A stretch of DNA of 29,990 nt from a virus. Made by a program: the position numbers and the translations under genes. Below, in pieces: positions 1 through 21,318 of the stretch (positions are counted from its first letter, which is position 1; every line of letters begins with the position of its first letter). The DNA lies in the IMG/VR virus record IMGVR_UViG_3300046000_003939, positions 1-29,990 of that record; one strand, 5' to 3'. The notes beneath the pieces are model-generated. The model was not told the origin of the DNA, made no database searches, and saw nothing but the letters and a program-made list of their open reading frames with translations.

Positions 1-3000
1 CTCAGATCCAACATCAAATGTAAGTTCATTGGTGTTGAAATCAATTGTATATGTAGATACCGGTTGACGTAATCCATTGACCTCAACTACTGCATTTTCA
101 GGGTTATCTTGACCAACAAAGTTAGTCAATTCAAACGGCCCTATTGTACCATCGCCTGTAAATCTTTGTACTTCAGGGATTGTATATCCATATTGATCTG
201 GTGTGGTTTCACCAAACAAGGTATATGTAATATAGTCATCATCTGTATTATAATCTCCAGTAGAGAAGATGATAGATGCAGAGATACCATTATCAGCGAT
301 ACCGAATGCATAATCATTAGTAATAAATTCTGCGCCACCAGTAGCATCTGTCAATGTAATTACAGGACCGCTGAGTGTAGCTGATACTGTAAATTCATTG
401 TTGTCATAGATACCGCTAACGTAGTATGTTGTTTGTGGTAATAATACGTTACCAAACATACTATCACTAAACACAATTGGTTCTCCCACAACCATACCGT
501 CTGTGGTGTTAGTTGTGACTGCATTGTTACTTGCTTTTGTTCGTGTAACGGTACTTGTTGTGCCGATCAACAACTTACTTCCATTGTGATAGATAATGGG
601 GTCTGTCCAAGGTGCACCATAACCAACTTTGATAACGATGTTCATTGAACCGGTTGCAGTTGTCAACGCAAATGTAGGTCCAGCAGTTCCTGTACCGGCA
701 TTGATTGTAGTTGACACTGTAATTCTATTAGTAATATAACTGATTGTTTTGACATAGTACGGAGTATCTTCTTGTAAACCACCAAATACATTACCTTGGA
801 ATCTAATAGGATCATTCAATACAAAGTCCTTAACACTAGCACAAGTGATAGCATTAGATGTAGCATCAGTTGCAGTAGCTAATACATCTACCGGGAAAGT
901 TTCAGGACGAATTACGCCTGAACCGTTGTAAAGTTGTCCTGTATAGTTACAGTTGACATAGATTTCATTCCAACCAGTAGTAGTATTTGTTCTGATAGGA
1001 TCAGTCTTAGTACTTGCCTTAACCAATTGATTACCATTACCTACTTCATATACATCTACACGTAACTTATCAGAAACGGGTAAGAATGGTAGGGGAGAGT
1101 TCAATGATACTACAAAGTTAACCCAATCTATAGTATAATCCAATGTTTCATATAGTGATGTACCTAATCCAGTAGTGCCGTCGATTTGGTATACGGCAAT
1201 CTGTGCTGGCGTCTGTACACTGTACAAGTTTCCAATATCAAAGCTATACGCAGTTTGGCTACCTGAAGTTGGATTATATTCTACTGAAACTACATTGTAA
1301 CCAACGTGAGCATATACAGTAGCATTCCAATCTGTACCAGGACGTGTGGCAACAGTCATCATTATATTGTCTGTAACGACCCCTGGAACTAATTCTTCTG
1401 GGCCATAACCATATTCAAATGTTGCACCTTGAACATCATAAGTAGTTGTCTGTGGTGCAAATACTGATGAACTAACCCATGTAGTACCATTGTTAACACT
1501 AGTTAAAATTGCATTGTTGTCTCCAACTACAACCCATGTTGCGTCATCTGCATTATATATGATTCCATTTAGATTTTCTGTTATACCAGACGTTCTAGTT
1601 GTCCATGTGATACCGTCACTAGATGTTCTAATTAAACCTGTATCACCTACAGCAATAAATGTTCCATTAGCATAAGATATATCTCTTAATGATCCAGTTG
1701 TTGGATATGAATACATGTAAGTAGTTGAAGAAGGTCCAACTGACGTTACAGTAACCGGTGAACCTCCGAATGATGTGCTCAACTGAAGCTGAGTACCTGA
1801 TATAATATTAACAACATAGTAATTGGTTGCTGTAGCAAACACGTTAAACGATTGTGAGAAGCGAACTATATCACCAACCGTGAATCCACCAGTGCTAGAA
1901 ACACTTAATGAATTGGTTACTGTGTTAGTACTAATGATAGATACTTCATTAACACCTGACCAGTTTGCACCGTTGTTAGAAATATAAATTATACCATCTT
2001 CACCTACTGCTACCGCATTAGTAGCACTACATGCAATAGCATACATACCCTTTGAACTGACTGCAGGTAACTGAGTCCAAGTTATGCCATCAATGCTAGT
2101 TACAATTAAGTTAATATCTACTGTAGTAGTTATTGGTCCAGAATAGTTAAATTCTTGTCCTTTACCTACTGCTATAAAACCAGTGAACGATGTAATGTTA
2201 ATACCAGCAACACCATATAAGGTGTTACTTAATAGTGGGTTTGCAAATGAAAATCTTTCATACCATCTATAGGTATCTGTGCTATAAACAATGTTCTGAC
2301 CAACAGCTACCCATGCATTATTTCTATATCCAATTGAATTTAAATATAATGACGCTACTTCTAATGCAGTCATATCATAGTTAGTATCATCATACGGTGT
2401 AGAACCCCATGGTGTAAAGTAACCGTTCGTAGTCCAAATAACACCATCAGTACTTCTGAATAACGGTGTTGCTTGATTATTTGTAGTTAATATGTACAGT
2501 CCTCCTGCATATATTATATCGGTTGTGCCTAGAGGAGTGTTTGCTAATTTCTTAATTTCCCAAGTGTTACCGGCTGCACTAGCAATAACTCCCGAATAAT
2601 CAGGTGTGTCGACCGGTGCAATGTATGATGTACCGTCCCATGCAATAGCGGTAACATCTATTTCAGTTGGGTAGAATGCCTGATCTTGTAGAATAGTGTC
2701 TAACGGATATTGTAATGCAGGTTCAAATGCATTACCTAAATACGTACTGTTTGGATAAGTAACACCCTCAAATAGTTGTGTCAAGTCTACACCAGGCATG
2801 TTGTCTGTTGGAGCATAATAACCCTTGACACGATCCATAGCATTCAATCTACGATCACCTGAATCTAATAATTCCCATTTACCAAACACAAACTCTTGGT
2901 CGTTGTTAGAAATAACACATACATAAACACGGTTATTGTACTTAACCAAACTCTGATTAAAGATGAATGGTTCAGGTAGTAATGCAAATGATCCTGATTT

Positions 3001-6000
3001 AGCCATTGTAAAATCAACACTGATTGTGGTAACCATATTCACAATTGTAGCAGAAGTCATTGAGGTAGACAAAACATTCTGTAAGATATTAACAATGTAG
3101 GTACCTGCACCACCTGAACCAGTTCCATATCCAACAATTTTTGTTGCTGCCGAAACTCCAGATCCTGTAATTATCATGCCTACTGTTATAGGATTACCTG
3201 AGGTAAACGAAGAAACTGTCAATACAGTATCTGCAATACTACCTACAAATGAGCTACTAGAGTTCAAACCAGGTACTGTGCTAATTCTAAATTGAGTGCT
3301 AGATGGAATATCATAGATATAGTATGTTGCACCTTCAGTGATATTTGTTATAGCTGTCTGAACAGATCCGGTAAACACAACTGCATCATTAACATCAAAC
3401 ACAGTAGTATCATCTATGGTTAATCTGTCATTAGATGAATCAATAGCAGTAACTGTAGCTTGTGTAGTTCCAATGAAAGGTAAATTTAATCCACTTGCAG
3501 GTACGGTCATTAACTGATTCTCATATAGAGCAAACTCAGTAGGAGAAACGACCTTCAAGTAATATTGCTGTGAGCTTCCTGGTACTGTACCTGAACAAAT
3601 TACACTAGTAATAGCGCCAACACTGTCAATAGCATTTACAGTCAGTGTTAAATCATTTGCGGGAGATGTTCCTCCCATACCTGTACCAAGAATAGTAATT
3701 ACGTTATCAACTGCATATCCAGAAGCTTGGTCATTAATAATGACACGATAGCCACCTAAAATATAACTTACATCAAACTCAGGAGTTGACAATGGAGTTT
3801 GATCCATTGTAGCATCTGTAGCAATAATCATTTTTTGAATACCATCCTGCGTTCCTGATGTAGTAATTGGAGATCCACCCGAAGTCAACGAAATAGTAAA
3901 TGTTGTAGAACCAGTATTGGTAACAAAATATTCTGTATTTTCTGACACGCCACCTGGCAATGCACCGGTTGTTCTAAAGAACACTTTAGTACCAGTTGCC
4001 GGAGCTTCAGTAACTGTAATAGTTGATGAAGGTATTGTAAATGTCGCATTCTGTTGGGTAGCACCAGGACTTACTGCTGTTCCGCCAGCTGATGTTCCAA
4101 CACTTACATAAGGTAAACCAGTACCGGTCATTAATCCACTGCCTGCTAGTAAATCTATTTCTAGACCACCCGGAGTATTAGTGATAGTAAACTGTGTTGC
4201 ATCATGAACGTTTTTCACCCAATACTCAACGTCAATTTGTACTCCACCGATACCTGCCCCGGAGAACGTGATTGGCATGTCTGTAAACAATGAGGCCGTT
4301 GATTCACATATTAAGTAATTGCCGGCTGTTGTAGCTGTGACTTCTACCTGAATAATGCCATTAGCAACAACATAATATTGTGTGCCGGCGGTCAAGAAAC
4401 TTGATCCGTATGTCGTAGAGATTTGTAATGGTAAATTATTGTAGATGTTTGTCAACCAAAGAGCAACAGTATCACCTGGGTTAAAGTTTGACAATACAAC
4501 TTTACCTGCAAGTGTAGCAGTACCTGTACCAGAACCAACACCTGTTGCAACAAATGTTACACCAACTGTATTAGATGAAGCACCAATCTCAATGAAATTA
4601 GTTGATCCTACAGCAGTGATGTTATATGCTTCTCCGATAATGAAATCCCCGGCGTTTGTTGCACTGCCGCTCTCATCTATCAATCCAGCTACACCGCGTG
4701 TAATCAAGTCAGTGTCAGTGCCAGTTAATCCTGGATATTGACCGGATGTTTCATATAATGTGAAGTATTGACCGTTAACTTGACCAGGACTTACTGGCAA
4801 GCTGACGTTGACAACCATAGTGTTGCCGGTAGTAGTTGTCAATGTTGTAGTATTCTTTTGGCTTGTTACTAACATTGATGTGTCATCGGCTTCTGCTACA
4901 GTAGTTAGATTTAATACTGCACCGTTAACTATAGCAGAGATTTGGAATGAAGTAGTAGACACAATAGAAGAAACATAATATGTTACACCAGATGTGATTC
5001 CACCAAAGCTAGTGACAGATGAGCCACTGACAATCATATTATTGAAAATTATTGATTCGTTTACTGCTATCTTCTGTGTGTCTCCGTTAATGACAACAAC
5101 ATCAGTAGAACCATCCGTAGATAATACGTCAAATGTCAATGGATCTTTAGTATCAGACATAGTGAATGTCTGATTGTCTACAACTGTTGTTATGTAATAA
5201 ATTTGGTTTTCAACTATACCACCAAATACACCATTATTAGGTAGTGAGGTATCTGTGCCGGTAAAGAAAATTGGTAAGTTAACATAGAAACCTTCTGTTC
5301 CTCCTGTACCTGTAGGGTTTAGAGGAACTGTTACTTTGTTTGTAACCGCAGTAGTCGCTGTTATGTCAAGAATACCTGGATAGTCTACTGTAATTACCGC
5401 AGTATCAGAAACTTGACCTACATAGCAAGACAATCCTGCTACACTTACTGTGTAGTTTGATAAATTTGTTATAGGGCTGCCGCTAGGATCACTAGAGATA
5501 GTAAAGTCTGTTTGACTCAAGATGCTATTAACGTAGTAAACTTGCTCGTTGACTATTCCACTTGATCCAACTGCACCAACAAACTTAACCGGCATTCCAA
5601 TATAGAAACCAATTGTTCCGCCGGATGCGTTTGGATTACCAGAACCATCGTCTTGTAACGCTAATCTAACTGCATCAGTAGATCCAATTACACTTCCTAC
5701 ATTACGTACAAAAGAACTATATGTAACTATACGATCATTTCGTACATCTGTAATTTCAAATGCTACACCCTGAGCACTAGCTAAAATAGATGCAATAGGT
5801 GGTTGAGTATTTTCTAATGTAATAGATGAACTAGCAACAGAACCACTATTGTGATATGAACCTGCATAGAATGCACCATAGTATCTTCCTGCTATCCATT
5901 CAATTATTTCAGAATTATAAGATGTTCTATCAAAACGTAAGGTAATGTTATTCTCTCTTACTGGCAATGCAGTAGAAATAGCACTTGCTTTTGCACCTAC

Positions 6001-9000
6001 ATTAAATGAATGATTAGAACCAGTACCAGTGGTGTATAAAGGTAATCTATTTTGATTCTTCACTGCATCAGAGTATTTTTCATATAAGCCTACACTGACT
6101 GAAGGTACAGTTTCTAAAACGTTAACATAATACCACTGTCCATCTTCTAAACCACCAACATTAGTGCTATCTGCACCTAGTTTGTATTGAACTAAATCAC
6201 CTGTTTGTAATAAAGGAGCATACACTTGAATAGTGTTTGTTAATGTGCTTACACTATTGCTGCCAAAAGAAACTACAACCGCAGAATCAATTACAATACT
6301 AGGTAAAACAGCATAACCTTGTCCCGGATCAATAACATCAATACGCAATACACTATCTAAGTTCATTACTGCGTTTAGTACAGCGGCTATAGTTGGAGCA
6401 GGATATATAGTGGTATCAATGTATGCGGTTACCTTAGGAGGTTCTGAGTATCCGCGACCACCATCTAACACTAATACAGCAGGCAAATCAATGTATATCA
6501 AGTCACCTGGAATGTGTGTTGTAACTGATGTTCCATTAACACCTCGAGTTAAACCTGACAGCACATTTAATGCACGGTCGACCGTAGCATAACCAATCTG
6601 TTCTACACCAATTTGAATTACTCCGTTGATAGGTAATCCCTGTGCGTTATCAACTGCAAATGTATTAGTGTTCAATGAAAGATATGAAGCCAATGTAGTA
6701 ATCTGTACATTGTCTTGTCCAGTCAATGCCACACCGTAGTTTTCAAACCACTGAGAATATTCAGATTCTTGCCAGATAGGATCATCAGGTGTAAATTGAT
6801 TCACGCCATTGGGATTAGCATACACTAGTTCAGGTGTTACAAATTGTCCAATCGAACTATTATACTTTGCAGGCAAGTCAAAATCAGTAATATCACCTGC
6901 ATACAATTCAGCACCAGTATACTTGAACAAGAACTCTTTAATTACAACATGATAAGGTTTGATCTCGTTTAAGTATCCTGCCAAGAAGTCTTGATTGTCG
7001 CTTTGGAATACTTCAATAGGTTTCAACTCACGTATAGTATGAGCTACATCCATAAATGAAGTTTTGTTCAACCACGGCAAGTAGTTTTGATTTTCTGTGC
7101 TTTCAGCTTGAATGTATTGAAATAACAGAATCAAACTCTTGTTTCTGTAAATTAACAAATCATTGGTATACAACTGTTCATTTAGAGCACGAACAATTTT
7201 ACGTGTTTCTTCACTCGGATACACATCGTAGGTGTCAGTATCAAAGAAGTTATCGCCGTAACCCAATCTGACTGATGCGTAATCCCACAATGATGATTTG
7301 AATTCGATTGTACCGTTTTCCAATCCAATACGTCTCCAGTTGCCTGTTGATTCATAAACATACGTTTCTGATTTACCGCTTCCGTTTGTAGCTACTGTGA
7401 CAATAGTACCAACACTTACTGACAAGGTAGACAAGTCAGCATACACTGGAACTTGTAGTGATGCCTTAGTATTATTGTTATACCCAGTTGCCCACCAGTT
7501 GATGTATTGCCAATAATTAGCAGTATCATAGAATTCACCGCTGGATGTTAGGAAAGAAGAATATCTAATTTCTGTTATAGGAAACTGAGCTAATACAGTA
7601 TTTGCATATTGTAAGTAGTTCTTTAATGCCAAGAATCTATTCAAGAAGAAACTCTGACGCGGTCTTGCTAATATACCTGTTTGTACTGCTTTTGGTAAGT
7701 ATGGGTTAGGAACTACAGAACCTAATTCATCAACTCCGCATAGACTGTCGAGTAGTCTATCATATAAACTTTCAGGTGTGTCATTAGTAACTAACGGGAC
7801 ACCTGGTAAAAAGTCACTTGCATAACCGTCACGTATCAAGTTGAATTGAGAGTGAGCAGGGTCATCATTACTACCAGTAGCAAATCCAATATGCAATACG
7901 CTATCATTCGCATTGATATAATCACCGCTATTGTATAATCCATATACGCTAGGTAGTAGAGGAGCAAAATAGCTTACTCCTGATGCTTTTGGACTCTCGA
8001 TGTATGATGCAACTACTGAATCAGCTAACGTTTTGCCATTATCAGAGAAGATGGTATTTGTATTTCTTGCCCAGAAATAATAAGTAGGAGTCAATGCGCC
8101 GGCGGCACTAATTACGTATTGAACAGAATAAGAGTTAACGTTAAACGGAGTACCAGGACCTCTATATTCTCCAGGCAACACAGTACTTGCTACCCAGCTA
8201 TAAATCGCAACATCACTGCCAGGGAACAATGTCGCCCAATACTGACTGTTATATGAAACATCATCGTTTTGATGATAGTTCACATATCGCATACTTCTAG
8301 TGTTTAACCAAACTGTACCTAGTTGGGCGGCGCCCCATGTAATTCCACCTGTTACTACTGATGAGTTATTGTAAATTGCAGGATCAGCATTTGAAACAAC
8401 ATCAATGTTTTCTCTTGCGGCGCCTAAAATTTTACCTTGTAATGGATCAATGTAATCCATGTTGATTAAAGTATTGTTTGTTTCAGCACTAAACAATTGA
8501 ATGTTGTAAATCTTTTCAATGTCTACTATAGGAGCAGAATAACGATGTAATGACCAATCTTTGACTCCTGTTAAATTGTTGTACGTTGTTACTGAACCTG
8601 CATATGTAGTACCGCTTGTAGCACCTGTATCATTAGGTGTACCAATAGCTACACTATAATCGTTAAAGTCTAATGCTGTACCATAATATGGTTGGTTGTT
8701 GTACGTTACGTCGGTTGCCTGAGCGTATGAATTATATGCTGAGTACACCAAATTAGGTGAGTTAACGCTCTGTGCATATATAAATTCACCAGGAGTTGAT
8801 AAACTTTCATTGTATTGGTCTATATAATCAAACATGTAAACTGCACCAAAGTTTGGTGACTCGTCTACCCACTGAGTGGCATTGTTATCAAATATAGTAT
8901 CATCATCTTGGTTTTCATTATCCAAGAAGTCAAACGTAGTTGCAGAGTAACGTGTTCCAGTAGGAGCACTTGCTACAAAGCTACCATACTGATTAAATTT

Positions 9001-12000
9001 AACTTTACTACCAAATTGAGTAGGTCCAATTTTATGTGGGCAAAGAATTTCTTGTGTCTTTGTGAAAACAGTTAGTCCTAATTCTGATAATGTTGCAGTG
9101 TCAACTACACCTAAGTATAACTTCTCGTCATAAGTTGTTATATCATAATTCAACAAGTAGATAGCAAGTTTTCCATCTACTGAGGCAGCAGTCACATTAG
9201 TTATACCTGCAGATTTAATTGCATTAGCTACAACTTCTGCGTTTCCTGCAGGAAGAAATGTTAAGTAACCATTAATCAATAACTTGCGTGTTGTAGTAAC
9301 GTTACAATTTGTTGTTCCCAAATATGTGCCATACTTAGCACCAGGATCTGTATAGCGATATACAGTTCCTTCGTGTGCTTGTGAATCTAACTGGAATGGA
9401 GCACCAATAATTATTTCACTTGCGTTGGTGTTTACGTCAACAGAGATACCAAACTGTGATCCTGTTTGAGGAGCTTCTTCAGTTGTCAATGTTTGTAGCA
9501 ACACAATTTCGTGACCACTTACATTAACAATATCACCTGCGTTTAGTGAACCAGTGTAGATCAAAGAATCACTTACTACTGCGTAGTTGTTGTCAGTAAC
9601 AACAGTACCATTTTTAGATACGATTAAAGATTGTGTTTGAACTGTTGCAGTTGCACCAGTGATAGATGCATTGGTTGTTACAGATACAGTAGATGCACTT
9701 TCTCTAGACGTTTTCAAAGTAATATATGAGCTAGGTACGTTGATAGTTGCAACGTAATAAACTAAATTAACAGAAACGTTTGTACCTGTCATAGTGCCAG
9801 TAAAAATTATAGGATCATTTACTGTTATACCAGAAACGCTGGTTAATGTTACTTTATTACCTGTACTATCAGTAGAAGATACCGTTCTAGAAACAGTAGT
9901 AGGAGTCCATGCTAACTGTAACGATTGTGATGCAGGTGAAATACTACTATAACGAATTTCAACATTTTGAGATAGACGTTGGAATGTATAAGTGTAACCC
10001 CAGTTATCCACTGTACCGTTGTTTTGATTAGGAGTACCGATGACAATTTCATCACCGTAAAAATCTGTAGCGATTGAATAACCAAAGTTGTCACCGGCAG
10101 TAGTTAGACCTAGTGCATCACCGTCGATTGAAGTGATATTGATATATGTTGTTTTGTTTGCAACACCCGTACCAGAACCAACACCAGTTGCGATGAATGA
10201 AACACCTACATCGTTAGATGCGGCTCCAACTGTAGTGAAATCAGTTGTACCAATACTTTGAATCGTGTATGTTTGTCCAACTACAAAATATCCTGCTGTT
10301 GTAGGTATGTTTGATCGTTCGTAAACATGAACAGTATTTTGTTCAATGTCAGAAATATAGATCCAATTTTGATCTCCAGATATAGCAATTGATGTTCCCC
10401 AAGGCGCATTAACGGATCCACCTGCAGTATAAGGCAATGTTTGAATCAAAATCAAATCATCAGATGTTGTAGTCTGTAGTAATTGATACAGTTTTACATT
10501 TCTAGTTACGCCAGTTGTTTCAGCAATTGCATATAAATTGCCTGAGTATTCGATAGTGCTACCAAAGCTAATACCGCCTGTTAGTGTCTGCATAATCTGA
10601 TATTCATTAACCAAATCGTTATAAGTATAACGATACACTGATCCTGCATCTGCATCACCAATTAAGTAACCAAGTGCATCACCAATAGCAACTGCACTAC
10701 CTAAAGATTCACTAGAGGTTTTTGTTATTTGATTCTCAAGTTGATAGTTGATAGATTTTCTGTACACACCCCATGACCCGTCAGTGGCTGTGTCAACCCA
10801 AACTGTGTTCTTTCTGAATTCAGAATCTAATAGAGGTAATGTATTAATCTCAGAAGGAGTTGCCACACGTTGAGATGTGAACTTCAATCCAATACCTTGT
10901 CCAGTAATATTCTTAATACTAGGATCAAGAGTCTTGCTAATCAATACTCTATACTGGTCAATGACAATTGTTGCTAAGTAGTAACCATCAATTGCAACAT
11001 CAAAGTTTACGATTGAAAAAGGTTGATATTGTCTTAGAGTGTGAGGCGTCTTGAACGTAATTGTAACAGTGTCGTTCAAATTGTTCTTAGCGTTTGTAAT
11101 TTGACCTATAGGTGCAGTTGTGTACACTTGCCAAGTTTCTAAATAATTAGCCAACCATACATAGTCACGTACATAGAAGTCTTGTATAGGAATTACTACA
11201 CCGCTCTTGTTAATTGCGTTAGGCATCTGAGCATAATAGAATGCAGACATCTTAACGTCATTGAAGTTTACATAACCTGCATCTGGATACACGGTAGAAG
11301 GTTCGGCCGCGCTTGCAGTTGGAAGTACATCAACATTAGTAATTGGACGCCCATAGTTAAACAGTGAGTACAATGGTACTTCTTGTTGTACACCCACATT
11401 AAATACACCGTTAGTTAACCCGACAATAGAAGGGTTTCCTGTCATGTAGTTTTGATTAATTTTGAATTCGACAAAGTTATTGTTTAGTACACCACCAAAT
11501 TCACCTGCTTTGATTGCCCAATTTTCATAGATATCATAATCAATGCCACCTTGTGGTAAGTTAGCACCTCTGAATGCAGAGGCTGCGTTCAATGTACCTT
11601 TGTTTTTAATCATGTTCTTGTATACGTTGACTTGAGTAATATCAGTCAAATCTGCAAGAGCCATGTAGTCACGTGGTCGATATCCAATCAAACTGAAACT
11701 TAATAGGTCTGCATCTTTTTCTAAGTTAGCCTGATTTATATCATAGTACAATGTGCTTTCATAGCTACGGGTACTTGCATTTGGTAACAAACCTGTTTGA
11801 ATTTCATCGTAGTTTGTTCTTTTCCAATCTGCTTCTTTAAAGGTCTCGCTAGGTTGAATTACTTTAGTTGCAACCCAGTACTTGTTCTTAAAGGTTACAA
11901 TCTCACCTTTAGTATATTTTGCGGTTCTGCTCCACTCTTTAATGTTGCTTTGGTTGTAGATAAAGCCGGCTGCATCAACTGTTCCATTCCAATTAGCAGA

Positions 12001-15000
12001 TTTAGCGCCTCGTACTGTAATTCTAGTCTGACGTAATCCAGTTGTAAGATTATAAAGAACGTCACCAAATAGTGTTTCGTTATTGAAAACAATACCGTGT
12101 TCAAAATTGCTTAGGTTGAATTGACCATACGACATAATATCGCCTTGATTTAGAGCAGTAACTCTAAATTCAGTTTCTTGACGAACGACAGCCAATTCGT
12201 TAAGTTGAATAGGGTATAAGTTTTGGTTCAATACAAAGTTAGATTGTTGAAGTGTTAACGGTTGTACGATATTGCTGTCTTTATTGATGACCAAACTCTT
12301 TGCAGAAGGGTTCAATGTAACAATACTACCTGCACTCCATCCTGTTTGCGCCCAATACAAGAACTCTGCAATCATCTGATTCCAGTTGATTTCTAATTCA
12401 TTCTCTAGGTCTTGGAATTTCATGCCCAAACTTGTTAAGTAAGCACCGTAATCAGATAAGAATTGAGAAACTTCTTGAACAGTATAGAATGTAGTGTTGT
12501 ATGGTACTAGTTGAATTTGGTCAAAGTGCTCTGGCGCAATCCTTACTGATAGTTGCTCAACATCAATAGACGTGTAGGTGCCACCAAACTTTGGTTTCAA
12601 AGTCTTAAAGTATGCAACTGTCTGTGAATTACCAAAGACAGTGAATCCGCCGTTTGTTGCTATTTGAATCACAACTCCTGAGTAACTGATTCTGTTGAAT
12701 GCTTGATTATCATATAATAAAACTTGATAGCTTTCATCAGGAATCAACAAGCTACTATTGTTACTGTTTGCTGTGGATTTTTCTACATAGAATTTCAACA
12801 ACGTTTTATCACTGAAGCCAGCTAAACGATATACTAAACGTACATCCATATTGTCTAACATCTCAGTGATATTTGTAGTAGCATCAATACCTACTTGTTT
12901 TTCATAATCAACTATCCAGTTGATGTATGAGGTCTTTGCAGTACCATTGCCGTAGATTTCAATCTCGTTGATCCTCAAATGGCTTCTGTCGTTCACTAGA
13001 TACTGATTAAATTCAGCATTGTACTTGTAATTGTCTAGGTCTACTCCCAAGTTAAAGAATTCTGCTGGCTTCATCAAAGCCATGATCTTCATCAAGTCAA
13101 ATGGATAACTAGAACTACGACGGTAACTAAATTCTACCGGTGCGCCATCACCTACTTTCCAATCACGTTGGAAAAGTTTTTGATTATAACTACCAACAAG
13201 TGTTTCTATAGGTGGTAGTAATTCTCCTGCTGAGTTAACAGGAATAATCTCTAGCAATCCGTCACGAACAGCTTCAGGAATAACAATTGGATCACCATTA
13301 TTCCAGTCAATACCTTGCGCTAAATCACTCCACAATACTAAGTTATCATTTGTATACGGTGCAGAACCATAACGACTTGTCCACCAAGTTGGCATCTCAG
13401 TAAAACCTAACATTTGCCATGGTGTAGTATTAGGAGTTGTTGTATCATAGAAATACTGATATATCCCTCTCCAATAGCCTTGACTGATAGGACTATTATC
13501 TATTGAGTTTCCACTTTGAGTATAGTTATAAGTGAAGTAGTTGCCGCTATTGTAATACTGTGTCTTATAGTTAAGTCTATTCTGTCCTGCCCAACTCAAG
13601 AAATTAGGTGAGTAAATGTATAACCAATCAGCGTATGAATAGTCAATGTCTCTAAAGAATCCAGGTAGAACCTCATATGCTTTAATAGGAATAACTGAAC
13701 TGATCTTCAAATTGTTATAAACACGTAATTCAAATTCTAATAGAACTTGGTCTCTGAAATCTACAAGAATACCTGTCGTAGGATCATAGTCACCGTACAG
13801 TTTGTTGTATGAACCATCATGTCCTTTGATAAAATATGTAGGTTCGTTATAATTTTCATCTAAGATTACTTCAGGAATATATGCAGGATATAATCCCAAC
13901 TTAGTTGGAGTATTAGGAACATAAGAACCATATGTTTGATTGTATTCCTTAATAGTAACAACGTCACCCGGTAACAAGTCTGTTGTTACTGTTAATGAAG
14001 GTGCTGTTTCACTTATAGTGTAATCTTGGTTCTTGATTAGTTGTTGTGTGGTAGTGATTCCATTAGTTGTTCTAGTCAAATAAACAAGTACACCATAATA
14101 ATTTGCAGTAGTGAAGTCATAGACTCTAGACAATGGATAGATAGAAACATCCAAGCTATTAGCAAATGAGTATGTGTTAGTAATGTAAGCTGATTTGCCG
14201 GGTAGCATATCAGACCAAAAGAACGGCTGACTGTTATCTTTGGTTGCAGTAATTTGATCCAAAGAGTCATCAAGCATCACGGATGGATTATATCTTTGTG
14301 TATAATCGCTGTTCTGTACAGTGTACACTAATTGGTTTTTAAACTTAATGTATTCTCTGTCATTGAATAATAATGCGTTGAACAAGTTGTGTTCTTGCTT
14401 GCGTAAGAATGCTCCGGGCAATACTAAGCTTGCACTGTTTTGAATGATCTTGTCGCCCCACGGAACCATATTACCCAAATCACGATAGTTGTTAGGGCCA
14501 AATACATTGCCAGTTGTATTGGGATTGTTATAGAATGCGCTTTGATATTGACCACGAATATCACCCACGTTTGCTGTAATGATATCAGCATTCAATGGGT
14601 TGTTATTTAAGTTAGTAGGTATAGAATAGAAAGCCGTTGGACTTACTTGGTCACTCAATAAGGAAATTTGAACAACTGTTTCTGTAACAGGTGATGTGTT
14701 CAATACTACTGTCGTAGAGTTAGGGCTTACTGTCACTGTAAATTCACTGTACGGAACAATTACGTTGTTGATTGCAACTTCAATAGTAGGCCAATTAGTA
14801 CTTGTGCTTGATGATTTTGAAATATCACATACAAATTCAGTTGTAGGATTTAATGGATCATAATTGAACGAGAACAATTGATATTGAACACTAGGTGATA
14901 CCGAAGTTTGCCAGCCAAGCTGACGAGTAAACAATTCTCTAGTACCGTATTGAAATACATATCCAGTGTTTACGTTTTGTGTTATTGGGTTAGTACCGCT

Positions 15001-17880
15001 GACATAATCAAATGTGTCTGAATTTAATGAAACATCAAAACTAATGTCACCTACGTTGTCTATAGAACTATACCTAATAGGGAATCCTAAAACAGTATCA
15101 TCTAGACCTGTTCCAATACCATATCCAAATAATTTACAACCTGTAAAAGAAGTACCTATGTATAATGAAGCGTCACCAAAGCTGACATCATTTTTATCAA
15201 ACACATCAAATAATGGTGGTTGATTTAGTTCAGTCTTTTGTTGAGCTTTTATCCATAATGAGCCGTCGAACCAAAACTCTTTGCCGTTATTAGCATATCC
15301 ACGTAAGGCAACTGTTTGTTGGTCAGCAAAAACATCACCGTCTTTGGCTTCTGTTAAAGTTATAACAGGAGTAGATGATCCGGTGATCGTAGAGAAACGT
15401 GAAACATAAACTTTGTTTCTTACGTTAACATTTGTATCAGCCGTAAAAATTACTTTTGCACCATCAAATAGTGCATAGTTATCACTTGTAGTGTCAGTCG
15501 CAATAAAGGATACATTGGTTGTTGTTGGTAAATATTTGCTTGTGCCGTCTAACCAGTTTACTTCAATAGTAAGAGTAGTAGTTCCCGAAATTGAGGAAAT
15601 TTGAGTATTTCTAGGTAATTGATTTGCAGAGTCAGTAATATATTGACCTACAGTGAGTGCACCAACTCCAACTACAACTACATCTGAAGCAGGTACTGTA
15701 ATCGTTGCGGTATTTACTGGAGTTACAGTGTCAATGATTGTACCTGTGTATGCAGTATAAACTTCAACATCCGGATAGTAATTTTCTTGACCAGCAACTA
15801 AAGTGAATGCATCAGTTGTTCTTACATCAATGAAGTCAACCGGTGCTTTGCCCTCAGACCCAGAGTTAAACATCTTTATATTAGGATAGAATTCAATAAT
15901 TGGACGTTTTGCTTTGTATGCAGAAGTAGCATACAGTGTTATCAAATCCGGATTGTTATTGTACGTTGCAGTAGCATTGATTACATCAATATGGAACCAA
16001 CGATTACTACGTGACCATGCATTCTGATCCATTGAATTTCTAGAAATAGTGATGTAGTCCGGTATTACGGGTATGTAGGAATCACCTTCCCAATTAGCAG
16101 AATCCCATCCAGCAGTATCCCATGGAATATATGTATTCGCAGTAAAAGCCTCTGGTGCAATAAAATCTTCTACGGGACGTAATTCAATTGCAGTGCCTAC
16201 ACCTTCTACATAGTATTCACCTGTCAAATAGCTTGACGGGAGTACGTCACCTTGGAATGTAACTTTTAAACCATTAGTAAACACAACACCATTTGTTGCA
16301 GTATATTGTTGTTGACCTAAAATATCTCTTTCAACATCTAATGTGTTAAGGACGTTACTTTCAATTAATCTTATTACACCAACTTTATTAGCGGATGTGC
16401 CATCTTGATAATATAAGGTATCTAGTTGAGCACTTAGGTATGGTATTAGTAATACTATACCTGATGGATTTTTGTAAAAACTTCTAGCTATCCATTCTGT
16501 ACCAAATGTAGCAGTAATCTTTTGATTAGTAGGGATTTCATTGGCTTGTTTCAAACGCAACACTGGATCTGTAGGATCACCTAAATACTGAATAGTATAG
16601 AAGTTTTCACTTACTGTAGTATAGTAACCTTGTTCATATAGACCTTGATTAGCTACCGCAGTCATTGTGCCGGTGCCGTCAGACAATGGATACACAGAAC
16701 CATCTGGTGTAGTAGAAACAGTAAACTGAGTAGAGTTAATAACAGACTCTACATAATAAATTGTATTTGGCAATGTTGTTGAATACGCTGCCAATCCACC
16801 AAAAGGATTTCCATTGAAAATAATAGCGTTACCAACAACTAGGTTTGCAGTACTACTACAGGTGATTGCATCAGTTGACGCAGTAGTTGCTGTAACTGTA
16901 ATAGTTTCTAGTGCAGTTAAACTATCGTTTTGATCGAATGGCGTATAGTCAAAGAAGTTAGAAACATAACCAACTTCGTTTGGAATACCTGTATTGTAGA
17001 ACATCACAGTTAATCCATCTAATGATGTTACACCATCAATACTACCAATGTCTGCAAGTCTTGCCCCGTTTATATTAGCAAAGGGTAAAGTACTAACGAC
17101 ATCAACTAGGTTGTTACCTGGGAAGTTGTAATTGTCTTGTCCGTCTTTAGGAGGCACAGTAAATGTAACAATGCCTTGACTTGCGCCGTTGTTATCAACA
17201 CCTAGTACGTCACGTGTTTGCACGTTTGGTTGTGCTGGGTCGTAACCAGTAATACCCGGTTTGCCTTGAATCCAAAATTGTGTGTCTTGGTTAACTGCAA
17301 ATGTGTATGTGCCGCCACGTAACAATGTTAGCGTTGGGTTAGTAGTTCCGGAGCTAGTAGATGCAGTTACCGGAACAATGTTATAACCATTTGGAAGATC
17401 GAATACGTTATAATCGTTAGAGGAGAAAACAGTTTCACTAGAAACAACAACGCTAGCAGGACCTTGAGGAATCCAGTAATACTGATTGAAGTTAATAATT
17501 TTGTCTAGGTTAGTGAAGCTATCCCAAGAATATAATTGGCTTGTGAATAAACGATTGTTATCTTGTGTCAATCCACCTTCTAGATTCAATGCATCCAACA
17601 TGCCAGGATAGCTGATAAAATCTTTTGCTACTGATTCATTTGTCTTAGTAAAGACAACACCTGGATCTAATTGATAATCTGTTCTTGTTTTCGTAGGTTC
17701 AGTAACGTAGTAATTTTTAGCGTTTACACCGTAACCAAATTTACTACCAACATAGCCTTCAATTCGTTTAATTTCTGGTTGCTGGACAAGTTGATCTAAT
17801 GTCGCACCCAAAAATTGGCTGTTAGTTGTGGTTTGAAATACTTCTGGTAAGAAGTTTAATGTTCTAATTCTAGATGCCAT
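1..17880 (-). CDS. Giant virion structural protein, probable baseplate wedge/tail-fibre fusion (partial, C-terminus outside window)
   Basis: I read every codon from ATG at 17880 to base 1 and found no stop: 5,960 codons, frame still open. The start is MASRIRTLNFLPE, 10 bases after the gp6 stop. FLPEVFQ plus FLGATLDQL near the N-terminus resembles tail protein I/gp7-like wedge proteins, and the place after gp6 fits (family knowledge plus inference). Visible parts: conserved-looking Tyr/Trp-rich region (about residues 300-2300, with a GHDGS motif near 1345); CBM-like segment 1981-2025; FG-GAP-like propeller about 2381-3117; a block with YLNEIKPYH near 3601-3661; beta modules about 3700-4950; second CBM-like segment 4971-5014; Asp-box propeller about 5067-5474; more beta modules to the edge, ending in VEVNGLRQ and YTIDFNTNELTF, a common phage tail motif. 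No enzyme motif, signal peptide or membrane segment was seen. It probably forms peripheral baseplate or host-contact fibres. The coding assignment is very sure; the function is moderate. Confidence 0.93.
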   Translation of the reverse strand, partial: MASRIRTLNFLPEVFQTTTNSQFLGATLDQLVQQPEIKRIEGYVGSKFGYGVNAKNYYVTEPTKTRTDYQLDPGVVFTKTNESVAKDFISYPGMLDALNLEGGLTQDNNRLFTSQLYSWDSFTNLDKIINFNQYYWIPQGPASVVVSSETVFSSNDYNVFDLPNGYNIVPVTASTSSGTTNPTLTLLRGGTYTFAVNQDTQFWIQGKPGITGYDPAQPNVQTRDVLGVDNNGASQGIVTFTVPPKDGQDNYNFPGNNLVDVVSTLPFANINGARLADIGSIDGVTSLDGLTVMFYNTGIPNEVGYVSNFFDYTPFDQNDSLTALETITVTATTASTDAITCSSTANLVVGNAIIFNGNPFGGLAAYSTTLPNTIYYVESVINSTQFTVSTTPDGSVYPLSDGTGTMTAVANQGLYEQGYYTTVSENFYTIQYLGDPTDPVLRLKQANEIPTNQKITATFGTEWIARSFYKNPSGIVLLIPYLSAQLDTLYYQDGTSANKVGVIRLIESNVLNTLDVERDILGQQQYTATNGVVFTNGLKVTFQGDVLPSSYLTGEYYVEGVGTAIELRPVEDFIAPEAFTANTYIPWDTAGWDSANWEGDSYIPVIPDYITISRNSMDQNAWSRSNRWFHIDVINATATYNNNPDLITLYATSAYKAKRPIIEFYPNIKMFNSGSEGKAPVDFIDVRTTDAFTLVAGQENYYPDVEVYTAYTGTIIDTVTPVNTATITVPASDVVVVGVGALTVGQYITDSANQLPRNTQISSISGTTTLTIEVNWLDGTSKYLPTTTNVSFIATDTTSDNYALFDGAKVIFTADTNVNVRNKVYVSRFSTITGSSTPVITLTEAKDGDVFADQQTVALRGYANNGKEFWFDGSLWIKAQQKTELNQPPLFDVFDKNDVSFGDASLYIGTSFTGCKLFGYGIGTGLDDTVLGFPIRYSSIDNVGDISFDVSLNSDTFDYVSGTNPITQNVNTGYVFQYGTRELFTRQLGWQTSVSPSVQYQLFSFNYDPLNPTTEFVCDISKSSSTSTNWPTIEVAINNVIVPYSEFTVTVSPNSTTVVLNTSPVTETVVQISLLSDQVSPTAFYSIPTNLNNNPLNADIITANVGDIRGQYQSAFYNNPNTTGNVFGPNNYRDLGNMVPWGDKIIQNSASLVLPGAFLRKQEHNLFNALLFNDREYIKFKNQLVYTVQNSDYTQRYNPSVMLDDSLDQITATKDNSQPFFWSDMLPGKSAYITNTYSFANSLDVSIYPLSRVYDFTTANYYGVLVYLTRTTNGITTTQQLIKNQDYTISETAPSLTVTTDLLPGDVVTIKEYNQTYGSYVPNTPTKLGLYPAYIPEVILDENYNEPTYFIKGHDGSYNKLYGDYDPTTGILVDFRDQVLLEFELRVYNNLKISSVIPIKAYEVLPGFFRDIDYSYADWLYIYSPNFLSWAGQNRLNYKTQYYNSGNYFTYNYTQSGNSIDNSPISQGYWRGIYQYFYDTTTPNTTPWQMLGFTEMPTWWTSRYGSAPYTNDNLVLWSDLAQGIDWNNGDPIVIPEAVRDGLLEIIPVNSAGELLPPIETLVGSYNQKLFQRDWKVGDGAPVEFSYRRSSSYPFDLMKIMALMKPAEFFNLGVDLDNYKYNAEFNQYLVNDRSHLRINEIEIYGNGTAKTSYINWIVDYEKQVGIDATTNITEMLDNMDVRLVYRLAGFSDKTLLKFYVEKSTANSNNSSLLIPDESYQVLLYDNQAFNRISYSGVVIQIATNGGFTVFGNSQTVAYFKTLKPKFGGTYTSIDVEQLSVRIAPEHFDQIQLVPYNTTFYTVQEVSQFLSDYGAYLTSLGMKFQDLENELEINWNQMIAEFLYWAQTGWSAGSIVTLNPSAKSLVINKDSNIVQPLTLQQSNFVLNQNLYPIQLNELAVVRQETEFRVTALNQGDIMSYGQFNLSNFEHGIVFNNETLFGDVLYNLTTGLRQTRITVRGAKSANWNGTVDAAGFIYNQSNIKEWSRTAKYTKGEIVTFKNKYWVATKVIQPSETFKEADWKRTNYDEIQTGLLPNASTRSYESTLYYDINQANLEKDADLLSFSLIGYRPRDYMALADLTDITQVNVYKNMIKNKGTLNAASAFRGANLPQGGIDYDIYENWAIKAGEFGGVLNNNFVEFKINQNYMTGNPSIVGLTNGVFNVGVQQEVPLYSLFNYGRPITNVDVLPTASAAEPSTVYPDAGYVNFNDVKMSAFYYAQMPNAINKSGVVIPIQDFYVRDYVWLANYLETWQVYTTAPIGQITNAKNNLNDTVTITFKTPHTLRQYQPFSIVNFDVAIDGYYLATIVIDQYRVLISKTLDPSIKNITGQGIGLKFTSQRVATPSEINTLPLLDSEFRKNTVWVDTATDGSWGVYRKSINYQLENQITKTSSESLGSAVAIGDALGYLIGDADAGSVYRYTYNDLVNEYQIMQTLTGGISFGSTIEYSGNLYAIAETTGVTRNVKLYQLLQTTTSDDLILIQTLPYTAGGSVNAPWGTSIAISGDQNWIYISDIEQNTVHVYERSNIPTTAGYFVVGQTYTIQSIGTTDFTTVGAASNDVGVSFIATGVGSGTGVANKTTYINITSIDGDALGLTTAGDNFGYSIATDFYGDEIVIGTPNQNNGTVDNWGYTYTFQRLSQNVEIRYSSISPASQSLQLAWTPTTVSRTVSSTDSTGNKVTLTSVSGITVNDPIIFTGTMTGTNVSVNLVYYVATINVPSSYITLKTSRESASTVSVTTNASITGATATVQTQSLIVSKNGTVVTDNNYAVVSDSLIYTGSLNAGDIVNVSGHEIVLLQTLTTEEAPQTGSQFGISVDVNTNASEIIIGAPFQLDSQAHEGTVYRYTDPGAKYGTYLGTTNCNVTTTRKLLINGYLTFLPAGNAEVVANAIKSAGITNVTAASVDGKLAIYLLNYDITTYDEKLYLGVVDTATLSELGLTVFTKTQEILCPHKIGPTQFGSKVKFNQYGSFVASAPTGTRYSATTFDFLDNENQDDDTIFDNNATQWVDESPNFGAVYMFDYIDQYNESLSTPGEFIYAQSVNSPNLVYSAYNSYAQATDVTYNNQPYYGTALDFNDYSVAIGTPNDTGATSGTTYAGSVTTYNNLTGVKDWSLHRYSAPIVDIEKIYNIQLFSAETNNTLINMDYIDPLQGKILGAARENIDVVSNADPAIYNNSSVVTGGITWGAAQLGTVWLNTRSMRYVNYHQNDDVSYNSQYWATLFPGSDVAIYSWVASTVLPGEYRGPGTPFNVNSYSVQYVISAAGALTPTYYFWARNTNTIFSDNGKTLADSVVASYIESPKASGVSYFAPLLPSVYGLYNSGDYINANDSVLHIGFATGSNDDPAHSQFNLIRDGYASDFLPGVPLVTNDTPESLYDRLLDSLCGVDELGSVVPNPYLPKAVQTGILARPRQSFFLNRFLALKNYLQYANTVLAQFPITEIRYSSFLTSSGEFYDTANYWQYINWWATGYNNNTKASLQVPVYADLSTLSVSVGTIVTVATNGSGKSETYVYESTGNWRRIGLENGTIEFKSSLWDYASVRLGYGDNFFDTDTYDVYPSEETRKIVRALNEQLYTNDLLIYRNKSLILLFQYIQAESTENQNYLPWLNKTSFMDVAHTIRELKPIEVFQSDNQDFLAGYLNEIKPYHVVIKEFLFKYTGAELYAGDITDFDLPAKYNSSIGQFVTPELVYANPNGVNQFTPDDPIWQESEYSQWFENYGVALTGQDNVQITTLASYLSLNTNTFAVDNAQGLPINGVIQIGVEQIGYATVDRALNVLSGLTRGVNGTSVTTHIPGDLIYIDLPAVLVLDGGRGYSEPPKVTAYIDTTIYPAPTIAAVLNAVMNLDSVLRIDVIDPGQGYAVLPSIVIDSAVVVSFGSNSVSTLTNTIQVYAPLLQTGDLVQYKLGADSTNVGGLEDGQWYYVNVLETVPSVSVGLYEKYSDAVKNQNRLPLYTTGTGSNHSFNVGAKASAISTALPVRENNITLRFDRTSYNSEIIEWIAGRYYGAFYAGSYHNSGSVASSSITLENTQPPIASILASAQGVAFEITDVRNDRIVTYSSFVRNVGSVIGSTDAVRLALQDDGSGNPNASGGTIGFYIGMPVKFVGAVGSSGIVNEQVYYVNSILSQTDFTISSDPSGSPITNLSNYTVSVAGLSCYVGQVSDTAVITVDYPGILDITATTAVTNKVTVPLNPTGTGGTEGFYVNLPIFFTGTDTSLPNNGVFGGIVENQIYYITTVVDNQTFTMSDTKDPLTFDVLSTDGSTDVVVINGDTQKIAVNESIIFNNMIVSGSSVTSFGGITSGVTYYVSSIVSTTSFQISAIVNGAVLNLTTVAEADDTSMLVTSQKNTTTLTTTTGNTMVVNVSLPVSPGQVNGQYFTLYETSGQYPGLTGTDTDLITRGVAGLIDESGSATNAGDFIIGEAYNITAVGSTNFIEIGASSNTVGVTFVATGVGSGTGTATLAGKVVLSNFNPGDTVALWLTNIYNNLPLQISTTYGSSFLTAGTQYYVVANGIIQVEVTATTAGNYLICESTASLFTDMPITFSGAGIGGVQIDVEYWVKNVHDATQFTITNTPGGLEIDLLAGSGLMTGTGLPYVSVGTSAGGTAVSPGATQQNATFTIPSSTITVTEAPATGTKVFFRTTGALPGGVSENTEYFVTNTGSTTFTISLTSGGSPITTSGTQDGIQKMIIATDATMDQTPLSTPEFDVSYILGGYRVIINDQASGYAVDNVITILGTGMGGTSPANDLTLTVNAIDSVGAITSVICSGTVPGSSQQYYLKVVSPTEFALYENQLMTVPASGLNLPFIGTTQATVTAIDSSNDRLTIDDTTVFDVNDAVVFTGSVQTAITNITEGATYYIYDIPSSTQFRISTVPGLNSSSSFVGSIADTVLTVSSFTSGNPITVGMIITGSGVSAATKIVGYGTGSGGAGTYIVNILQNVLSTSMTSATIVNMVTTISVDFTMAKSGSFALLPEPFIFNQSLVKYNNRVYVCVISNNDQEFVFGKWELLDSGDRRLNAMDRVKGYYAPTDNMPGVDLTQLFEGVTYPNSTYLGNAFEPALQYPLDTILQDQAFYPTEIDVTAIAWDGTSYIAPVDTPDYSGVIASAAGNTWEIKKLANTPLGTTDIIYAGGLYILTTNNQATPLFRSTDGVIWTTNGYFTPWGSTPYDDTNYDMTALEVASLYLNSIGYRNNAWVAVGQNIVYSTDTYRWYERFSFANPLLSNTLYGVAGINITSFTGFIAVGKGQEFNYSGPITTTVDINLIVTSIDGITWTQLPAVSSKGMYAIACSATNAVAVGEDGIIYISNNGANWSGVNEVSIISTNTVTNSLSVSSTGGFTVGDIVRFSQSFNVFATATNYYVVNIISGTQLQLSTSFGGSPVTVTSVGPSSTTYMYSYPTTGSLRDISYANGTFIAVGDTGLIRTSSDGITWTTRTSGITENLNGIIYNADDATWVVVGDNNAILTSVNNGTTWVSSSVFAPQTTTYDVQGATFEYGYGPEELVPGVVTDNIMMTVATRPGTDWNATVYAHVGYNVVSVEYNPTSGSQTAYSFDIGNLYSVQTPAQIAVYQIDGTTGLGTSLYETLDYTIDWVNFVVSLNSPLPFLPVSDKLRVDVYEVGNGNQLVKASTKTDPIRTNTTTGWNEIYVNCNYTGQLYNGSGVIRPETFPVDVLATATDATSNAITCASVKDFVLNDPIRFQGNVFGGLQEDTPYYVKTISYITNRITVSTTINAGTGTAGPTFALTTATGSMNIVIKVGYGAPWTDPIIYHNGSKLLIGTTSTVTRTKASNNAVTTNTTDGMVVGEPIVFSDSMFGNVLLPQTTYYVSGIYDNNEFTVSATLSGPVITLTDATGGAEFITNDYAFGIADNGISASIIFSTGDYNTDDDYITYTLFGETTPDQYGYTIPEVQRFTGDGTIGPFELTNFVGQDNPENAVVEVNGLRQPVSTYTIDFNTNELTFDVGSE
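340..860 (-). repeat. Two C-terminal-side copies of the YYV beta module
   Basis: Two copies flank a linker. Near 660-860 the copy reads NDPIRFQGNVFGG ... TPYYVKTI. Near 340-510 it reads GEPIVFSDSMFGN ... TTYYVSGI, then NEFTVSATL. They match the main cluster in strand order and spacing. A further copy near 1740-1890 (IVRFSQSF ... TNYYVVNIISG) is inserted in the Asp-box propeller. Confidence 0.7.
1460..2680 (-). other. Asp-box / YCF48-BNR-like beta-propeller in the giant protein
   Basis: About residues 5067-5474 contain five Asp-box-like strands: RSTDGVIW (near 2434-2457), TSIDGITW (2077-2100), ISNNGANW (1960-1983), RTSSDGITW (1600-1626) and SVNNGTTW (1477-1500). Each is preceded by a Gly-Asn-x-Trp/Phe-Val-Ala-Val-Gly-type strand, for example FIAVGDTGLI or WVVVGDNNAIL. 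This is the repeat pattern of BNR/YCF48-type propellers. One YYV beta module (about 1740-1890) is inserted between two blades. No sialidase catalytic arginines or RIP motif are evident, so a binding or structural role is more likely than an enzyme. Confidence 0.6.
2840..2970 (-). other. Second CBM-like/conserved segment before the Asp-box propeller
   Basis: Residues 4971-5014 include FNQSLVKYNNRVYVCVISNN, then FVFGKWELLDSGD. The layout (Val-Lys-Tyr-x-x-x-Val-Tyr-x-Cys, then Lys-Trp) is like the CBM5/12-like segment at 11806-11940, so it may be a diverged second copy. It lies just before the Asp-box propeller, so the pair may form one receptor-binding unit. This is weak evidence. Confidence 0.35.
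3060..3235 (-). repeat. Gly-rich 'GMIITGSGV' tail module
   Basis: Residues about 4882-4940 read GNPITVGMIITGSGV, then a GTGSGGAGTYIVN stretch, then QNVLSTSMT. This Gly-Met-x-x-x-Gly-x-Gly-Val ... Gly-Thr-Tyr-x-Val pattern is common in phage tail-fibre-like proteins. A single copy was recognised in the window. Confidence 0.5.
3270..5650 (-). repeat. Main cluster of the repeated 'F-x-G ... YYV ... TxFTIS' beta module in the giant protein
   Basis: Six copies of a roughly 50-60-residue module occur here, near 5470-5650, 5130-5280, 4860-5070, 4140-4300, 3840-4020 and 3270-3410. Each has a first strand such as MPVKFVG, PIFFTG, PITFSG or AVVFTG, then a Gly-rich turn, then a strand such as QVYYVNSI, GVTYYVSSI, VEYWVKNV or ATYYIYDI, then TDFTISS, TSFQIS, TQFTIT or TQFRIS. 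The module is probably an Ig-like or jelly-roll strand unit forming the shaft. Spacer sequences differ between copies. Confidence 0.75.
4501..4650 (-). repeat. GTGTG-type module, copy 2
   Basis: Encodes IGEAYNITAVGSTNFIEIGA followed by SSNTVGVTFVATG and GTGTGTA. It is homologous to the copy at 10156-10300, about 5.6 kb away in the same gene. I recall modules of this kind from various marine phage structural proteins; no search was run. Confidence 0.75.
8530..10740 (-). other. Seven-repeat FG-GAP-like beta-propeller region in the giant protein
   Basis: Seven segments carry the integrin-alpha-type FG-GAP pattern: LGSAVAIGD, FGSTIEYSG, WGTSIAISGD, FGYSIATDF with IVIGTP, FGISVDVNTN with IIIGAP, FGSKVKFNQYG, and YGTALDFNDYSVAIGTP. 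Each has a downstream aromatic strand such as GSVYRYTY or GTVYRYTD. Seven repeats fit a seven-bladed propeller. At least two blades are separated by inserted modules: the GTGTG module near 10160-10300 and a YYV module near 9660-9850. Such propellers usually mediate protein or glycan contact. The count is by eye. Confidence 0.6.
10156..10300 (-). repeat. GTGTG-type module, copy 1, inside the FG-GAP region
   Basis: Encodes VGQTYTIQSIGTTDFTTVGA followed by SNDVGVSFIATG and GTGTG. It pairs with the copy at 4501-4650. At DNA level the block at 10169-10191 matches 4526-4548 at 22 of 23 bases, so the similarity survives at the nucleotide level. Confidence 0.75.
11806..11940 (-). other. Carbohydrate-binding (CBM5/12-like) segment in the giant protein
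   Basis: Residues 1981-2025 contain the spaced pattern KEWSRTAKYTKGEIVTFKN followed by KYWVATKVIQPS and ADWKR. This is the Trp, Tyr-x-x-Gly-x-x-Val, Tyr-Trp-x-Ala, then terminal Trp pattern of small chitin-binding-type (CBM5/12) domains. In phage tail proteins such domains may bind cell-surface glycans. Binding is inferred from the motif alone. Confidence 0.5.
16660..16880 (-). repeat. N-terminal-side copy of the YYV beta module
   Basis: Residues about 335-405 read NAIIFNGNPFGG, then NTIYYVESVINSTQFTVSTT, a full match to the repeated module. Weaker copies lie near 16200-16320 (KVTFQGDVLP ... GEYYVEGV), 15340-15520 (KVIFTADTNV ... NKVYVSRF) and 9660-9850 (DPIIFTGTMTG ... VYYVATINV). The module is therefore scattered through the whole protein, not only its distal part. 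Confidence 0.65.
17740..17880 (-). other. Tail protein I/gp7-like N-terminal segment of the giant protein
   Basis: Residues 1-47 begin MASRIRTLNFLPEVFQ, then FLGATLDQL, then IKRIEGYVGSKFG. Leu-Pro followed shortly by an aromatic residue, with Phe-Leu about ten residues later, is typical of the start of contractile-tail wedge proteins of the gpI type. These bind the gp6/J wedge protein. The gene follows gp6 directly, as I follows J in phage P2. This is a pattern-level match only; a profile or structure search is needed to confirm it. Confidence 0.4.
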
Positions 17881-21265: not shown

Positions 21266-21282
21266 AGTTATTCTCTTTTAAG

Positions 21283-21296: not shown

Positions 21297-21318
21297 AAAA
21301 ACCGTGTTTTTTTCGGTT
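21297..21318 (-). terminator. Terminator-like hairpin between gp25 and gp6
   Basis: On the minus strand AACCG and CGGTT form a 5-bp stem around a 9-base A-rich loop, followed by a short T run. The stem overlaps the gp25 stop codon. The stem is short, so termination may be partial. Because the sequence is nearly symmetric, it could also act on the opposite strand. Confidence 0.4.

Follow-up and report, generated by a model that had tools for sequence, protein, structure and literature searches.

The minus strand of this viral DNA reads from position 17880 to position 1 without a stop codon, which raises the questions of whether a single gene of this size exists here and what kind of protein it encodes. 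The stretch analysed, hereafter called the window, corresponds to one IMG/VR record in full (29,990 bases). An earlier note had described an uninterrupted frame of at least 5,960 codons starting 10 bases after gp6, and both statements were confirmed: the frame opens with an ATG 10 bases past the stop of the gp6-like gene at 17891-21265, covers 5,960 codons and runs off the first base of the record. The only other listed open reading frames of at least 80 aa within 1-17880 are of 91 and 98 aa. At a GC content of about 37%, a random frame would by arithmetic hit a stop about every 15 codons, and a chance open frame was thus ruled out.

Since the window is the complete record, the end of the gene was sought in other records, using the last 960 residues as query, and seven loci were returned. 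One record, IMGVR_UViG_3300042398_000275 (L107, L114 and L115, equal to G032), aligns with the window over 12,880 bases at 99.992% identity and with 0 gaps; the match reaches the window's left end, and the extension to the left that had been proposed as a check led, 1,707 bases further on, to an in-frame stop. The complete gene in that record encodes 6,528 aa (708.9 kDa), and over the 5,960 residues in common the two proteins differ once (D3367E). A locus from another metagenome (L007) is 99.965% identical to the window over 11,538 bases, including the first part of the giant gene. Tandem Repeats Finder reported no array in the window, and the copies of the repeated module described below share no more than 50% identity within a protein, which makes repeat mis-assembly unlikely. 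As far as assembled sequence allows, mis-assembly or repeat collapse was rejected on these grounds and on the agreement of separate assembled records, and the giant frame of the window is one real gene.

A relative of the giant protein is encoded in 354 of 355 candidate stretches in IMG/VR, and 80 loci were retained. We checked 40 records, consisting of 31 of the 80 retained loci, mostly long contigs, and nine more, five of them from the gene-end search; some of the 40 look like near-copies with the same frame length (e.g., G016-G019). In 31 of the 40 the frame stays open for 5,943 codons or more, counted from stop to stop, with a maximum of 6,749, and the other nine comprise seven shorter frames that reach the contig end, as judged from coordinates, and two broken ones. 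Among 21 compiled regions including G032, 19 carry one complete frame of 5,940 to 6,673 aa (trimmed starts), and the last residues are similar in all 19 complete proteins of the clade. When the 18 others were aligned to G032, 11 matched end to end in one piece and seven in several pieces. The interrupted regions, G023 and G025, look like broken frames from their sequences; a split gene as a natural two-gene form was rejected, because some 59 residues are missing from G023 where the frame breaks, and in G025 the frame shifts inside contiguous homology. In three pairwise comparisons, dN/dS was 0.03 to 0.19 in all 500-codon bins with unsaturated dS (four saturated bins of the pair G032-G014 gave no ratio), and for these three pairs the gene is under purifying selection along its length.

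The giant gene and the neighbouring genes in the window are as follows:
1..17880, minus strand: giant gene, residues 1-5960 of 6528; open frame, complete in G032, phrog_10938; 3' end beyond the window
17891..21265, minus strand: gp6-like baseplate wedge protein, 1124 aa; phrog_10646 (E 7.7e-260) and phrog_219 (E 4.9e-25)
21317..21769, minus strand: gp25-like baseplate wedge protein of 150 aa; matches the wedge-subunit family phrog_43 (E 8e-6)
21788..25570, minus strand: gp5-like baseplate hub protein, 1260 aa; phrog_13211 (E 8.7e-36)
27727..28044, minus strand: gp53-like baseplate wedge protein of 105 aa; matches the wedge-subunit family phrog_7145 (E 7.2e-23)
29028-29939, plus strand: gene for a sigma factor of late transcription (phrog_12791), in divergent orientation to the baseplate operon

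The gene order is a phrog_12050 virion protein, the gp53-like protein, a phrog_11190 virion protein, the gp5-like hub, the gp25-like and gp6-like proteins and the giant protein, with gp25 and gp53 named as in T4. In the hub protein the profile match stops at residue 514, and the remainder is by eye largely rich in Gly, Ala and Ser. Antisense to the hub gene lies a 473-codon open frame with a GTG start (22749-24170, plus strand), where GC rises to 45%, and this frame is probably a shadow of the hub gene's composition. Downstream of the giant gene in L107 come first a 206-aa phrog_11259 protein and then a 406-aa protein (L107:15408-16628), whose N-terminus is like virion protein phrog_14394 and whose residues 256-332 match the Peptidase_G2 autoproteolytic chaperone; judged from its sequence, the 406-aa protein is probably a spike or fibre.

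The results of the profile searches showed that the giant protein belongs with phrog_10938, a family annotated as 'virion structural protein' with a 3,324-column profile, which is matched by pieces one to four out of six, of 1,000 residues each (E 3.4e-63, 2.8e-126, 1.5e-16 and 1e-57, respectively); pieces five and six gave no match in the PHROGs profile search. The 11 isolate orthologs examined are 3,313 to 4,555 aa long, and in 10 of the 11 isolate regions, as in the window, the gene lies immediately behind a gp6-like gene, which for Munch and Vibrio 2.275.O was assigned in a separate step:
Phosso (294), 4,555 aa
Atu_ph07 (gp180), 4,449 aa
PA5oct (gp355), 3,857 aa
PBECO4, 3,333 aa
CBB (CBB_236), 3,340 aa
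RaK2 (ORF070w), 3,326 aa (from coordinates)
Vibrio 2.275.O, 3,771 aa (from coordinates)
Munch, 3,342 aa (from coordinates)
XaC1, 3,332 aa (from coordinates)
XacN1, 3,313 aa (from coordinates)

The XacN1 ortholog is distant, with a match over 25% of a single 1,000-residue query (E 2e-8). In Salicola phage SCTP-2 the ortholog gp140 (3,807 aa) is preceded by a gene of 3,096 codons (L005:10609-19899), which may encode an enlarged gp6-like protein. In a Foldseek search of a library of predicted viral structures, 21 matches were obtained at E<=0.001, the top ones being uncultured-phage proteins and the Atu_ph07 structural protein, and several of the library entries are split into parts. The family is thus already present in PHROGs and, as multi-part entries, among predicted viral structures, and in the available parts of PMC5259590, PMC7247149 and PMC11242549 orthologs appear in the tables, including one of 4,455 aa listed for phage AP-J-162 (PMC11242549).

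Some of these relatives have been detected in virions. The available part of PMC5259590 reports CBB_236 (3,340 aa) by mass spectrometry with 21 unique peptides and 7.72% coverage, and that of PMC7247149 reports phAPEC6 gp245 (381.88 kDa) with 17 peptides and 7.6% coverage, listed after the 131.18 kDa wedge protein gp244. The latter was identified as an ortholog from gene order and mass only, the computed masses of PBECO4 gp538 and gp537 being 383.1 kDa and 131.2 kDa, and the annotation of PA5oct gp355 carries an ESI-MS/MS note. Based on the place after gp6, the match with phrog_10938 and the detection of orthologs in virions, the giant protein is very probably a virion protein of the baseplate, and its earlier description as a phage structural protein is upheld at this strength.

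To describe how the giant protein compares with its smaller orthologs, a block map was drawn from five of the isolate orthologs, although not all blocks align with all of them:
17281..17880, minus strand: N-terminal core block, residues ~1-200; aligned locally to 4 of 5 isolate orthologs at 30-34% identity, and seen in the conservation profile
15661..16413, minus strand: core block, residues ~490-740; aligned locally to 2 of 5 isolate orthologs, and seen in the conservation profile
11131..15603, minus strand: core block, residues ~760-2250; longest block common to the family, by profile match and alignments
6721..8793, minus strand: core block, residues ~3030-3720; common to isolate orthologs, by profile match and alignments

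The sequence outside the four core blocks is mostly specific to the window's clade. The isolate members of phrog_10938 are like the window protein in profile match, place after the gp6-like gene and core blocks; however, among the six best pieces for each of the five orthologs no local alignment extends past residue 3,715 of the giant protein, and, unlike the window protein, the five contain 0 copies of a repeated module of about 74 residues, here called module A. The complete giant protein has 14 copies of it, at 330, 2668 and twelve sites from 4075 to 6255, of which the following lie in the window, while three further copies and the C-terminus lie past its end:
16654..16893, minus strand: module A copy 1, residues 330-409, in an insertion mostly absent from isolate orthologs
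9649..9879, minus strand: module A copy 2, residues 2668-2744, from repeat search
322..5658, minus strand: C-terminal array, residues 4075-5853, in which nine module A copies are separated by other sequence, from repeat search

A search with the module A profile gave 9 to 17 copies per protein for the 19 clade members (domain E<=0.001); six other proteins of the window had no domain at E<=0.01. Under a stricter limit, 256 copies fell into 20 rough positional groups, six of which are filled in 19 of 19 proteins and the others variably, e.g., a group near residue 722, inside the ~490-740 core block, which is present in 8 of 19. For 243 of the 256 copies the best cross-protein match was the positional counterpart, and only one had a closer relative inside the same protein, so that homogenised copies were rejected; these positional matches, together with the low identity of copies within one protein, indicate that the array is ancient and has for the most part been passed down in register. 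At a distance from the giant gene, the genomes G008 and G015 have further stretches resembling the module A region, in frames of 834, 822 and 828 aa (G008:C1:209656-209904, G008:C1:212364-212657 and G015:C1:310462-310719), and module A seems to be shared among different proteins.

A 568-residue C-terminal piece from L107 passed the cut-off of the Pfam family E1_FCCH (PF16190; 34.4 vs 29.5 bits), and of single module A copies 2 of 14 matched it at E<=1 (best 6.9e-4). AlphaFold models were made with 50 sequences each for residues 3051-4250 and 1060-2250; their mean pLDDT was 60.1 and 54.6, respectively, and only local domains are usable. Foldseek with either whole model gave no PDB match at E<=0.001. 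The modelled module A copy at residues ~4053-4158 aligned with Uba6 (7pvn_A) at Z 8.6 and rmsd 2.1 A over 79 residues, and with the listed E1 chains at Z 6.2-8.6 and rmsd 2.1-3.1 A over 76-89 residues, values to be read against the tool's stated background of Z 7-8. In this model the copy has the same barrel fold as the E1_FCCH domain of Uba1 and Uba6; it differs in that the phage protein is without an E1 enzyme context and repeats the barrel as an array. Phage chains also matched the copy, namely head-to-tail 9jlf_E (Z 7.3), tail-tube 9l0f_G (Z 7.0) and phi92 endosialidase (Z 6.5), and since head-to-tail and tail-tube chains are among them the barrel is not specific to E1. Against PDB sequences the best match of module A was the insertion domain of the P22 coat protein (weak, E 0.011), and 5 of 14 copies weakly matched the tail-fibre family phrog_9370 (best E 0.0019).

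Other domains were predicted along the chain:
13927..14196, minus strand: beta-domain, residues 1229-1318, like fibre or baseplate adaptor domains (P1 baseplate, CBA120 TSP4, T7-type fibres)
11794..11949, minus strand: CBM5/12 (chitin-binding type 3)-like domain, residues 1978-2029, from Foldseek, structural alignment and Pfam
9982..10101, minus strand: FG-GAP repeat, residues 2594-2633, in the variable region ~2250-3030, from Pfam PF14312
6487..6699, minus strand: module E copy 1, residues 3728-3798, a barrel like a JBD30 baseplate domain
1471..2628, minus strand: Ycf48/BNR-type beta-propeller region, residues 5085-5470, from profile match, with a module A copy (5316-5388) inside

The adaptor-like domain aligned with 9vzk_T (Z 8.4, rmsd 2.8 A, 76 residues), 7rfv (Z 8.1, 2.0 A, 64 residues) and 9ay5_0 (Z 8.0, 2.4 A, 73 residues), Z values near 8 being close to the tool's background, and it had no credible match in the PDB profile search. 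The CBM5/12-like domain matched chitinase C (1wvv_B) with a Foldseek probability of 1.00 (E 0.077, rmsd 2.1, 43 columns) and the baseplate of phage Milano (8fqc_P1) at Z 7.4 and rmsd 1.0 over 45 residues; Pfam CBM_5_12 was found in 12 of 13 orthologs at E<=1 (best 4.3e-4), the window copy scoring 18.0 bits against a cut-off of 26.2, and the matches with PDB profiles were weak (best E 0.1). The FG-GAP family reached 28.1 bits against a cut-off of 23, and the propeller region matched Ycf48 (8am5_S) at E 6.4e-5 for the whole sequence; in both cases no single stretch passes alone. Module E, for which the repeat search found a second copy at residues 6418-6480 outside the window, gave alignments of 75 residues with JBD30 8rk3_b (Z 9.7, rmsd 2.0 A, 23% identity) and of 78 residues with a capsid chain from Vibrio phage VP1 (Z 10.0, rmsd 3.1), and had no credible sequence match in the PDB profile search. 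Residues 3758-3868 (window 6277-6609, minus strand), which overlap module E, weakly matched the head-closure family phrog_460 (E 7.9e-4), a match that points away from a baseplate, and part of the same fourth piece weakly matched phrog_7578 (E 0.0074). Of the wedge, shaft and receptor-binding modules that had been named earlier, what can be retained is that the adaptor-like, CBM5/12-like, propeller and barrel domains, all predicted or profile-matched, are of tail-fibre or receptor-binding kinds. Much of the extra length is, as predicted by profiles and models, the C-terminal array of E1-FCCH-like barrels and the Ycf48-like propeller.

Taken with its neighbours and relatives, it is rather likely that the giant protein is the largest structural chain of the contractile-tail baseplate of a jumbo phage, made as one polypeptide of 6,528 residues. 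Its core blocks (~1-200, 490-740, 760-2250 and 3030-3720), which also exist in phages of the RaK2, PA5oct and Atu_ph07 types, would probably build into each baseplate wedge beside the gp6-like protein and may form a platform for fibre attachment. The inserts specific to the lineage and the last 2,800 residues, with FCCH-like barrels, propeller and beta modules, would probably project as arms, which in turn would probably contact the cell surface or brace fibres. We infer the wedge location, copy number, outward projection and surface contact. The fusion of several tail functions into one chain, as proposed in the earlier note, would likewise be an interpretation; the appearance of the array is that of modules acquired inside a single gene and does not resemble T4 genes joined together. 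A more speculative extension, to which we give limited credence, is that the clade's wedge protein absorbed a surface-contact function, each copy bearing its own arm of FCCH-like barrels and propellers; if true, the reach of the baseplate grows by module gain inside one gene and not by added fibre genes.

It is possible, though on the unlikely side, that the extension is a long fibre-like arm serving as the main receptor-binding device, which would be compatible with a baseplate location. The array of beta modules with a propeller fits such an arm, as do the weak match of module A with phrog_9370 and its alignment with a stretch of phi92 endosialidase. However, a separate spike-like gene with a Peptidase_G2 domain near the C-terminus of its product lies downstream, most module A copies are found at corresponding places from genome to genome, and purifying selection acts on the region, in contrast to hypervariable tips.

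Somewhat more doubtful is descent of the giant protein from a common ancestor with T4 gp7 followed by great enlargement, which is also compatible with the baseplate reading and would agree with the position of T4 gene 7 directly behind gene 6, the same place as that of the giant gene. T4 gp7, however, has 1,032 aa, and no sequence or profile similarity was detected: hhalign of two family profiles against T4 gp7 gave probabilities of 0.5% and 0.05%, a weak test with gp7 as a single sequence, and the PDB profile search had no T4 baseplate chain among its matches. T4 gp7 was also absent among the structural matches listed for the two weak models, which excludes nothing. An equivalence with gp7 was not borne out, and since no homology was found the giant protein is not filed as gp7.

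A polyprotein, i.e., one chain cut by a phage protease into several baseplate or fibre proteins, is quite improbable. The strong modularity, with conserved core blocks between variable inserts, and the autoproteolytic Peptidase_G2 gene two places downstream in L107 would suit it, and the peptide coverage of less than 8% for CBB_236 and phAPEC6 gp245 is compatible with cleavage too and does not establish a single chain. On the other hand, both relatives are listed as single virion proteins in the available tables, which give no band masses, and the Pfam scans made found no protease domain inside the giant chain. We consider that the giant protein is likely one uncut chain in the virion. An assembly artefact, be it a chimera or a false fusion of adjacent genes, has a negligible chance in spite of the broken frame in 2 of 21 regions, given separate records that agree at 99.97-99.99%, one uninterrupted frame in 19 of 21 regions with 11 of 18 aligned to G032 end to end, the similar C-terminus in 19 of 19 and the purifying selection.

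The giant protein is an oversized version of a protein known from the particles of other giant phages, enlarged by an array of small barrel modules. The statement that it would be among the largest phage proteins holds in so far as the giant gene is real, but the case is less singular than was thought: the family is known, 354 related stretches exist, and the available part of Al-Shayeb et al. 2020 (PMC7162821) describes, for huge phages from metagenomes, predicted proteins as long as 7,694 aa, of which some are tentatively structural; they are alike as giant predicted proteins and were compared with the window protein by size only. In a literature search that covered few subscription journals, no paper was found on the function of the giant protein or on FCCH modules in phage tails, nor were the complete length in the window's clade and its explanation by FCCH-like modules found in print. 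A class of giant phage genes, for the most part unannotated, is linked by the analysis to a likely tail location and to a growth pattern of a conserved core with gained beta modules, and the smaller orthologs in RaK2-like and PA5oct-like laboratory isolates are open to study.

As a minor observation on the surroundings of the baseplate operon, L107 carries two adjacent radical-SAM genes nearby (20830-22245 and 22242-23471), the second with a SPASM domain, and radical-SAM genes are annotated downstream in Phosso and Atu_ph07 too.
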